DNA of 64,000 nt from positions 3,911,913-3,975,912 of the forward strand of contig NZ_CP130318.1 in assembly GCF_032268605.1 (NCBI RefSeq), in the 5' to 3' direction. A program made the translations under genes and the position numbers. Under the pieces are notes generated by a model, which was not told where the DNA came from, did not search any database, and saw only the letters and a list, made by a program, of their open reading frames with translations. This document shows positions 32,084 to 35,782 of this stretch, one piece after another. Numbering within the stretch: position 1 is the stretch's first letter; the number at the start of each line of letters is the position of its first letter. The DNA comes from Paenibacillus aurantius (GTDB lineage: Bacteria > Bacillota > Bacilli > Paenibacillales > NBRC-103111).

Positions 32084-33574
32084 TCAAGGCAAAACGGCAT
32101 GACCTGCCGGGATTCGGCTCCGGCTGACCGGAAGGATGATCTCGATGGTCGTGCCGCGGTTAACCCGGCTGGCGGCGCGAAACTCTCCGTGCAGGGACTC
32201 CACGATCTTGATGCTGACCATAAGACCAAGTCCGGTTCCGTTCTCCTTGGTGGTATAGAAGGGCTCGCCCAGACGGGAGATCCCTTCCTCGGGAATTCCG
32301 CATCCCTGATCCGTGAAGCGGATGCTGAGCTTTCCTTCGGGGAGCTCTTCCAGCTCCACCAGCAGCTTCCCGCCGGACGGCATGGAGTCCATGGCGTTTT
32401 TGATCACGTTAACAAAGACCTGCTTAAGCTGATTCTCGTCGCAGTCCACCAGGGAGCACAGGCTTTTGAATTCCGTTTGAACATCGATGTTGTTCAGGAT
32501 GGCCTGAGGCTCCAGCAGCTTGAGAATGCTCTGGAGCACGTGCCGGACGTTGTTAGGCTGGCAGCGCATGGCCTGGGGCTTGGCCACCACCATAAACTCA
32601 TTGATGATGAAGTGAATCCGGTCGAGCTCCGCGAGCATAATTTCGTAGAACTCATGATGAACGGCATTCCGCGACTTCAGCAGCTGGGTGAACCCCTTCA
32701 GCGCGGTGAGCGGATTGCGGATCTCATGAGCAAGCCCCGCGGCCAGCTGGCCGACGACCGCGAGCTTCTCGGATTTGCGGACCATCTCCTCGGTCCTCTT
32801 CTTCTCCGTGATGTCATGCATGACCAGCTGAATAACCGGCCGGCAGTTTTTATAAATGTAAATACAGGAGGATTCCACATCTAGCACTTCTCCATCCAGC
32901 CGGCTGACCTTATGCTCGATAAACTCAAGCGGTTCTTGTCCGTTCGATACGGTAAGGAAGCGTTCCTCCATCAGCTTCCGATAATCCGGGTGAACCAGCT
33001 CAAGAATCGGCCGGCCCGTGAGTTCCTCCCGCGAACCGGCTCCCATCATCTTGACGGCGGCGTCGTTGGCGTAATTGATGATTCCCGCTTCATCGTGAAC
33101 CAGGATGGCGGCCGGAAGAAGCTTGATCATCTTGTAGTTAAGCCGCAGGCTCTCCTTTAGGGACTGCTCCCTCTGCTTCCGTTCGGTAATGTCTATGGCC
33201 GAGCCGATGACCTCCACCACCCTTCCGCTTTGCTTGATGGGTCGGAGCGAGGCCAGAAAGTGAATGCCGGCCGATTCTCCTTCAAAGGTAACCTTTTCTT
33301 CCCCCTGCCAGGCCCGTTCGTAGTGGGCTGCCACATCCACGGCTTTATCCAAGGGCAGCAGGTCCTTAAGGTCCTTTCCCGCTATTTCCTCCTGACCCGG
33401 AAGCATACGGTCCATCAGTTCTCCATGGCAGATGGTATGGACAAACCGTCCGCTTTGCTTTTTGAATTTGAAGATCATTCCCTGCTGCACTCGGATCGTT
33501 TCTTCCCATTCGGAATTAACCGGCTCGAGCGCAAGCTGTCCATCCTCTGCCTGATTGCTTTCGATCCTGGTCAC
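32084..33574 (-). CDS. PAS-domain sensor histidine kinase (KinA/KinE-like, cytoplasmic)
   Basis: A 496-residue kinase with no TM helices: PAS-like domain (about 25-130), second PAS (about 145-260), then HisKA with the phospho-acceptor in LAHEIRNPL, and HATPase with N box NVIKNAMDSMPSG, G1 FTDQGCGIPE, F/G2 PFYTTKENGTGLGL. All catalytic boxes are intact. The soluble PAS layout resembles sporulation and stress phosphorelay kinases. GTG start at 33574, six bases after GGAGG. No response regulator is adjacent. Confidence 0.92.
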   Translation of the reverse strand: MTRIESNQAEDGQLALEPVNSEWEETIRVQQGMIFKFKKQSGRFVHTICHGELMDRMLPGQEEIAGKDLKDLLPLDKAVDVAAHYERAWQGEEKVTFEGESAGIHFLASLRPIKQSGRVVEVIGSAIDITERKQREQSLKESLRLNYKMIKLLPAAILVHDEAGIINYANDAAVKMMGAGSREELTGRPILELVHPDYRKLMEERFLTVSNGQEPLEFIEHKVSRLDGEVLDVESSCIYIYKNCRPVIQLVMHDITEKKRTEEMVRKSEKLAVVGQLAAGLAHEIRNPLTALKGFTQLLKSRNAVHHEFYEIMLAELDRIHFIINEFMVVAKPQAMRCQPNNVRHVLQSILKLLEPQAILNNIDVQTEFKSLCSLVDCDENQLKQVFVNVIKNAMDSMPSGGKLLVELEELPEGKLSIRFTDQGCGIPEEGISRLGEPFYTTKENGTGLGLMVSIKIVESLHGEFRAASRVNRGTTIEIILPVSRSRIPAGHAVLP

Positions 33575-33893: not shown

Positions 33894-33939
33894 GGCAAAA
33901 AAAATAAAACCTGACAGGTCTTGACTTTCCGCCTGTCAG
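33894..33939 (-). terminator. Rho-independent terminator after the degenerate-kinase unit
   Basis: Stem CTGACAGG/CCTGTCAG (33911-33918 with 33932-33939), then GTTTTATTTTTTTT on the minus strand. Confidence 0.87.
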
Positions 33940-33956
33940 ATTTTATGAAAATCCCA

Positions 33957-34316
33957 TTAAGAAGAGGACGGCTGGAAGGACAGCAGATCAATCTGCCGTT
34001 CGGTTACCTCGTCTATGAAATCCGTTTGTTTGTAGCGGAAGGGATCCCCCGAAATGGTGAGCTGACGCTCCTCCCACGGCATCGACCGGTAAACGTTCTT
34101 CACTTTGTCTTCGCCTCCCACCATACGGACACGAACCAGACCCGGCTGGATAAGAATGAGGGAGGCTTTGCCTTCTCCGTAAGGGACGGTAAACATGCTA
34201 ACCCTCCCGTGCTGCTCCGCTTCCTCTGCGAGAACAGCGGGGTAGTCGAAGGCGGAGCCGAACGGAACCTGATGGCGGATCAGCCGTTCGCGGCTATTGG
34301 AATTACTGGAAGTCAA
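33957..34316 (-). CDS. Unknown 119-residue protein co-translated with degenerate kinase
   Basis: A small soluble protein with no family I recognise. Seen: an N-terminal polar stretch, then RHQVPFGSAFDYPAVLAEEA, a beta-rich middle (RVSMFTVPYGEGKASLILIQ, LVRVRMVGG) and a charged end. The likely start is a TTG (34316) overlapping the TGA of the upstream kinase-like gene (TTGA), with AAAGGCGG eight bases before; a GTG at 34325 is possible. It ends just before a terminator, so the pair is a two-gene unit. Confidence 0.65.
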   Translation of the reverse strand: MTSSNSNSRERLIRHQVPFGSAFDYPAVLAEEAEQHGRVSMFTVPYGEGKASLILIQPGLVRVRMVGGEDKVKNVYRSMPWEERQLTISGDPFRYKQTDFIDEVTERQIDLLSFQPSSS

Positions 34317-35614
34317 CGCCTGCACCGCCTTTCTTCTTCAGGGAGCTCGTTGTCGTTAGATAGGATGTCCAGTGTGAATTCCCGGACGGGGATGACAAAG
34401 GTAAGAGTAGCTCCACGATCGGAGGCGGCCTCCGCCTGGAGAGACCCGCCCATCAGCTCGATAAGCCGTTTGCTGATGGCCAGATTAATGACGGCCCCGG
34501 AGTAGTTCTGCTCGGTTCCCGCCTGCTCCGGTTCCGACTGGAGATGAAACAGATCCCCGAGCCTATCGGGAAGGATGCCGATCCCCCCTCCCCGGACTTC
34601 AAATTTCAGCAGATAGCTTCCGGGCTCGCCGCTGTTCGGCAGAACACGGGCGCAAACGTCGATTCTTCCACGGCTCGTGAAGTCCAGGGCATTGCGTAAA
34701 ATATTCGACAAAGCCTGACGAAGCTTTCGCTCATCTCCAACGATGACAGGCAAGCTTTCGAAGCGTGTGGCCAGCTCGAGCTGGATGTTTTTCTCCGCGG
34801 CTTCTGCTTGAAAATCCCGGATGACGGTATCCACGGCCGATACAAGATCGAAGGGCTCATGCTCGGCTTTCATGTCTTTCGCTTCCAGACGGCTGTAGTA
34901 TAGGATGTTGTCCACCAGCGAAAGCAGAGAATGGTTGCTCATCTGGATAATTTCAATGTATTCCTGCTGATCAGGCAGAAGAGGAGTCTCGCCCAGCAGG
35001 TCCGTGGCTCCCATAATACTGGTGATAGGGGCCCGGATTTCCGAACCGATGGTCGCCAGCAGGTTGCTTTTTAACTGGACGGATCCTTCCACGGCCTGGT
35101 TCGCTTCCTTCAGCTTCTTCTCCGTCTTCTTAAGTTCCGAGACCGTATTCTCCAATTCGATGACATGGGCCAGAAAGACAGCCATTGATTGCAGGGCGGT
35201 AATATCGGTCTCCGAAAAACGGTAGGTCGTGGAGTCCAGGGCGCAAACCGTCCCGTAAGCGGTCCCGTTCTTGAGCAGGATCGGAACCCCGATAAAAGAA
35301 CGGCTTCCGAGAGCCTGGGTTACCGCCATGGAGGAGGTGAGGGGACTCGAAGCCGTGTCGGGAATCAGAAGCGGCTTGCTGTCGTTATGAAGAACAAGGC
35401 TGCAGTAGCTCAGTTCAAAAGGAAGGCAGTCGTTCTCCTTCACCAGCTCTTCCCTGCGGTTAAACGCATTCATAATAACATTGGTTACCCCGTCATTGCT
35501 CGCCACGAAGATGGTATTGACTTCAAGCAAGCGGCTTAATAGCTCTATGACATGGGCCGCCGCATCATGGATGCCTGAATAGAAAGTTGCATTCTCTCTG
35601 TGAATTCCTTCCAA
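34313..35614 (-). CDS. GAF-domain histidine kinase-like protein with degraded catalytic motifs
   Basis: About 433 residues from a TTG at 35614 (GGGAGG ten bases before); the open frame extends to 35677. A GAF domain (about 10-150) is followed by a coiled coil and a HisKA/HATPase region. The phospho-acceptor site reads TIGSEIRAPI, with Ser191 (codon 35042-35044) where His belongs. The N box LSNILRNALDF is kept, but G1 reads VRGGGIGI, lacking its Asp, and G2 reads SGAVINLAISKR, lacking the Gly pattern. It is probably unable to phosphorylate, yet the frame is intact, suggesting selection for a non-catalytic role. Confidence 0.85.
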   Translation of the reverse strand: MEGIHRENATFYSGIHDAAAHVIELLSRLLEVNTIFVASNDGVTNVIMNAFNRREELVKENDCLPFELSYCSLVLHNDSKPLLIPDTASSPLTSSMAVTQALGSRSFIGVPILLKNGTAYGTVCALDSTTYRFSETDITALQSMAVFLAHVIELENTVSELKKTEKKLKEANQAVEGSVQLKSNLLATIGSEIRAPITSIMGATDLLGETPLLPDQQEYIEIIQMSNHSLLSLVDNILYYSRLEAKDMKAEHEPFDLVSAVDTVIRDFQAEAAEKNIQLELATRFESLPVIVGDERKLRQALSNILRNALDFTSRGRIDVCARVLPNSGEPGSYLLKFEVRGGGIGILPDRLGDLFHLQSEPEQAGTEQNYSGAVINLAISKRLIELMGGSLQAEAASDRGATLTFVIPVREFTLDILSNDNELPEEERRCRR

Positions 35615-35782
35615 CCGAATCGGACCTCCCGTAATGGTTGCTGCAAAACCCGTTTCGGCGGCGCCAGTCGGGCCCAAGCCGTTTCTGGAACGGATGGTTC
35701 CCCAGACGGCACACCGGGGCAGGCTTCAAGTTATCCTTAATAAATAACCTTACCCAAGCACTTAGCAAGTGAAACGGCGTCT

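Follow-up and report, generated by a model that had tools for sequence, protein, structure and literature searches.

We found that a gene on the minus strand of the window (the whole stretch of 64,000 nucleotides of Paenibacillus aurantius DNA that was analyzed) probably encodes a soluble, orphan pseudo-histidine kinase that is controlled by a GAF domain and whose action is to bind a kinase or a receiver encoded at an unlinked site. As judged by alignment with relatives, the donor histidine, the residue at H+4, the adenine-contacting aspartate of the G1 box, and the glycines of the G2 box are lost. Retained are the GAF domain, the HisKA helices, and a sequence that is still recognizable as an ATPase domain. 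We infer that the protein neither autophosphorylates nor dephosphorylates receivers.

The gene (34313..35614, minus strand) encodes 433 amino acids and is open end to end, from a TTG start at 35614 to a TGA stop at 34315-34313. A ribosome-binding site, GGGAGGT (35624..35630, minus strand), is 9 bases ahead of the start. Domains were called with Pfam, and all three scored over the curated cut-offs: a GAF domain (PF01590; residues 16-150; 35165..35569), a HisKA, or DHp, dimerization domain (residues 182-245; 34880..35071; 53.9 bits), and a HATPase_c, or CA, domain (residues 293-411; 34382..34738; 59.6 bits, compared to 86.9 bits in the neighboring active-type kinase), all on the minus strand. 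Pfam found no receiver domain in the protein, which ends at residue 433. There was also no equivalog match to the named hybrid kinases in NCBIfam (TorS, BarA, LuxQ, and others); the best, to TorS, scored 177 bits, well below its cut-off of 676. Just upstream of the ribosome-binding site, between an AraC-type gene and the pseudokinase gene, is an 82-base stretch (35653-35734) that is single copy in the genome and missing from a second strain, CC-CFT747. It is foldable, but not clearly above shuffled sequence.

The residues needed for catalysis are missing at four sites, each placed by alignment with relatives (all minus strand). Ser191 (codon 35042..35044) is at the position of the phospho-acceptor histidine, and Ala195 (35030..35032) is at H+4, a position occupied by Asn or Thr in 65 of the 71 relatives and by Phe or Met in the others. 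The G1 box is VRGGGIGI (34574..34597), with Gly342 (codon 34589-34591) in place of the aspartate, and does not have the DxGxG pattern of active HisKA kinases. The G2 box is YSGAVINLAIS (34472..34504), compared to YGGTGLGLAI in active relatives, and is without the GTGLGL pattern. In contrast to these losses, both asparagines of the N box, N304 and N308, are present (LSNILRNAL; 34685..34711). Because the N box and the G1 glycines remain, the pseudokinase may, as far as its motifs indicate, have weak residual ATP binding.

A sequence-only reading of this DNA had described an intact frame with a GAF domain and an N box, a serine for the phospho-acceptor histidine, a G1 box without its aspartate, and a G2 box without GxG. 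Each of these descriptions agrees with what we found. The substitution at H+4, and the strand of the gene, had not been given in that reading. In HisKA kinases, phosphatase activity uses the H+4 residue (Thr or Asn), numbered from the acceptor histidine. In RetS of Pseudomonas aeruginosa, the H+4 residue is T428 and acts in phosphatase activity (PMC5992135). In a published survey, about 0.9% of HisKA domains were without the histidine (PMC12632262).

We compared the window to the corresponding region of Paenibacillus sp. CC-CFT747 (L012, CP106741.1), an independent assembly. CC-CFT747 carries identical motif residues, including Ser191 and Ala195. This rules out sequencing error as the source of the motif losses, as had been argued from the window sequence. 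Of the differences between the two pseudokinase genes, 23 are synonymous and 2 change an amino acid, a departure from neutral change with p about 1e-12. In the part encoding GAF there are 10 synonymous changes and no amino-acid changes. The pseudokinase gene is under strong purifying selection. The neighboring intact PAS kinase gene (32084-33574) shows much the same, with 14 synonymous and no non-synonymous changes between the two strains. It resembles the sporulation kinases and is directly downstream of the two-gene unit formed by the pseudokinase gene and a short frame described below. The CC-CFT747 record has a G run that is one base shorter in the G1 region and a further indel in the short frame. 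Over 9.2 kb and several genes it differs from the window by 14 single-base indels, mostly homopolymer shortenings. The frameshifts and apparent fusions in this region of CC-CFT747 are most likely assembly errors.

We searched 104 genomes of the family for orthologues using the GAF half of the protein. The nearest, 57-60% identical over the GAF half, were in three genomes of a lineage, g17, that belongs to another genus. In the g17 orthologues the acceptor motif is IGQEIKTP, with Gln for His, the N box is KLLDHAS, and there is no G1 or G2. Close orthologues with an intact histidine and G boxes had been proposed in the sequence-only reading as a sign of recent decay, and the closest that we found have neither. 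Among the g17 genes, omega (non-synonymous over synonymous rate) was 0.05-0.085 for GAF, 0.05-0.07 for DHp, and 0.17-0.28 for CA, which is looser but still constrained.

Related proteins in the order have lost their catalytic motifs in a mosaic pattern. When 392 genomes of the order were searched with a GAF profile, the family turned up in 96, and we read the motifs in 72 rows. All four combinations of histidine kept or lost with G1 kept or lost exist among them. In g35 (31 rows read, e.g., L037, L038, L043, L059, and L061), the histidine and the H+4 Asn are kept and the N box and G1 are lost. In g37 (L049 and L055) and in L062, the histidine is kept and the ATP motifs are lost. In five genomes (L065, L068, and L089-L091, with L088 also listed), the acceptor His-Glu has become Asn-Lys, N and G1 are kept, and G2 is changed. 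The GAF-hybrid kinases of the Paenibacillales (L063, L064, L067, and L069) keep all of the histidine, N box, G1, and G2. They have the same type of GAF domain as the window protein and belong to the same clade (see below), but they also have a receiver-like tail, whereas the window protein has no receiver and, of these motifs, only the N box. The g35 proteins share the clade and the loss of ATPase motifs with the window protein, but differ from it in keeping the histidine and H+4 Asn and in having a receiver-like tail, which scored just under the Pfam cut-off. The g35 protein, a GAF-HisKA protein with a degenerate ATPase domain, is conserved within one genus, in about 40 genomes, of which 31 were read. 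This family is larger than that of the window gene and is perhaps easier to study.

In lineages with lost CA motifs, HisKA scored 54-67 bits and HATPase_c 22-60 bits, compared to HATPase_c scores of 87-93 bits in intact kinases. Because HisKA scores remain high while HATPase_c scores fall, and because omega in g17 is low for GAF and DHp, it is apparently on the sensor and the dimerization helices that the selected function depends.

With the acceptor columns removed, a maximum-likelihood tree grouped all of the inactivated forms together with a set of intact hybrids in a single clade (support 100/98). The order within the clade was not resolved: the AU test gave p 0.50 for one clade of all inactivated forms and p 0.45 for a grouping of the window protein with g17. 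The tree does not reject a single loss event, but because all four combinations of histidine and G1 kept or lost exist, the motifs imply that at least one of these two losses took place repeatedly, barring the regain of a lost site.

Pseudo-histidine kinases are a known class, and we compared the window protein to members with described functions. We predicted its structure with AF2, using a shallow alignment of 7 rows. The DHp-CA core was modeled with pLDDT of about 70-90, mostly 80-90 in the CA core, and the helices of the DHp region were at residues 135-208 and 214-244. The lid was disordered, and the GAF half was of low confidence and unreliable. In a fold search with the model, the top matches were to GacS and RetS, among them the DHp complex of the two (7n0e), and DivL ranked lower. 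By sequence, too, GacS and RetS were among the nearest proteins of solved structure, and DivL is a homologue whose structure has been solved. The likeness to RetS and GacS is a likeness of HisKA class and is not in itself evidence that the protein forms heterodimers.

RetS of P. aeruginosa cannot autophosphorylate and acts on another kinase, its partner GacS (PMC5992135). It shares with the window protein a HisKA core with a degenerate ATPase domain. However, RetS is a hybrid with two receivers, a periplasmic sensor, and an H+4 Thr for phosphatase activity, whereas the sensor of the window protein is a GAF domain, and the protein is without C-terminal receivers, the histidine, and an H+4 Thr (Ala195). 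In DivL of Caulobacter, the acceptor histidine is replaced, there is no kinase activity, and the protein is selected for a binding role (PMC4211667). DivL and the window protein have a homologous core with the acceptor replaced in both. DivL differs in having PAS sensors and an acceptor Tyr, and its binding partner is DivK~P and its target CckA; in the window protein, the sensor is GAF and the acceptor position is Ser. A third case is ChrS. Native ChrS and HrrS formed heterodimers, whereas a truncated, evolved ChrS variant showed none in a two-hybrid assay (PMC9491836). The variant is a pseudokinase precedent for acting by binding (PMC9491836).

We propose that a ligand on the GAF domain would alter how the coiled coil and the DHp helices are arranged, and that the output of the pseudokinase would be binding through the conserved dimerization helices, in principle like RetS or DivL. 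The binding could take either of two forms. The pseudokinase might form mixed dimers with, or mask, an active hybrid kinase of the GacS/BarA-like kind whose gene is at another place in the genome. Mixed dimers are possible because several intact kinases of this genome have a DHp domain that is 34-41% identical to that of the pseudokinase. Alternatively, the receiver of a response regulator might be held on the DHp surface.

The second of these forms can be weighed on its own, as a DivL-like sensor in which the DHp/CA core serves for input, detecting whether a response regulator is phosphorylated and relaying that state. Few parts of the protein are as well conserved as DHp, and DivL, with its histidine replaced, binds ATP weakly (PMC4211667). 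No receiver gene was seen by eye beside any member examined, and we regard this form, taken alone, as unlikely.

A different partner had been suggested in the sequence-only reading: a dedicated pair in which GAF is the sensor of the pseudokinase and the signal is passed on when the pseudokinase binds a 119-residue protein encoded next to it. The frame for this protein (33957..34316, minus strand) begins with a TTG that overlaps the stop of the kinase gene (TTGA, 34316-34313). The unit is closed by a hairpin and T-run (33897..33946, minus strand; -23.7 kcal/mol, z -4.31) that acts as a terminator of the two genes. A simple terminator scan missed it, since its loop exceeds 8 bases. The overlap and the terminator are thus as had been reported, and together they suggest translational coupling. 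In addition, the codons of the frame follow a pattern that fits a coding sequence, and the frame is present in both strains. Differences between the strains in this frame were few, too few for a test of selection.

Beyond the species, the evidence runs against such a pair. Homologues of the 119-residue protein were found in only 2 of 392 genomes of the order, both of the same species, and the protein had no match in Pfam, NCBIfam, PHROG, or PDB. Modeled alone with AF2, it had a pLDDT of 47. There is no such gene beside the g17 orthologues; as read by eye, a hairpin and T-run come immediately after the g17 kinase gene, and then an unrelated glutaminase-like gene. We therefore rejected the 119-residue protein as a dedicated partner. 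The part of the proposal in which the pseudokinase senses through GAF agrees with an intact GAF domain that is under selection. The part in which it signals through the 119-residue protein does not fit a protein confined to the species, and we consider the dedicated pair improbable. The pseudokinase and the 119-residue protein are at most a local arrangement, and the 119-residue protein, if made, would be a lineage-specific accessory and not a general output.

We found no neighboring gene shared between lineages of the GAF-kinase family. Read from the sequences, the neighbors were nrdDG-like and Fur-like genes in g35, glutaminase-like and Rieske-type genes in g17, and pyrimidine genes in g37. 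With nothing common across lineages, we dropped conserved neighborhood as a clue to function. Because no neighbor is conserved and the genes are orphan, a general partner would act in trans. An unlinked kinase or receiver is more likely to be the partner than is the 119-residue protein.

Two other explanations are very improbable. One is recent pseudogenization of a gene whose frame is still unbroken, as might be suggested by the several lost motifs and by the faster change of CA than of GAF and DHp in g17; it is strongly contradicted by the 23:2 ratio of synonymous to non-synonymous changes, by equivalent losses in another genus, and by mosaic losses maintained across many species. The other is an unusual active kinase that autophosphorylates on Ser191 or another residue, for which the frame, domain signatures, and N box are intact, but the G1 aspartate and G2 are lost along with the acceptor, the Gln or Asn at the acceptor position of relatives could not assume a Ser-type role, and DivL, whose acceptor is Tyr, is inactive as an autokinase (PMC4211667).

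The preferred reading, of a non-catalytic protein that acts by binding, could extend to the relatives. Tentatively, and with less confidence than for the window protein itself, we suggest that a clade of GAF kinases in the Paenibacillales has repeatedly become non-catalytic modulators that are gated by a GAF ligand and that retune the active kinase network by mixed dimerization. The lineages would have lost the histidine, the ATP site, or both, each retaining GAF and DHp, and would be a soluble counterpart of RetS with several origins.

What is new here is a soluble GAF form that has lost the donor, the phosphatase residue, and the ATP site together, and a mosaic of losses among close relatives. 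Our search found no literature on a GAF pseudokinase family in Paenibacillus, although this is not proof that there is none. Histidine pseudokinases are rare, and the few that we encountered as understood belong to the Proteobacteria and Corynebacterium. Close relatives with every combination of intact and lost histidine and ATP site make up a natural series, in which one can ask which activity a kinase drops first and what the remaining scaffold does. Interactions between pseudokinases and kinases within one genome are directly testable in these Gram-positive spore formers.

The same type of GAF domain was also seen, by eye, in other combinations. In L118-L120, which are outside the order, it is joined to a STAS-like domain, resembling RsbR of the stressosome. 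In L121, L025, and L026 it is joined to GGDEF.
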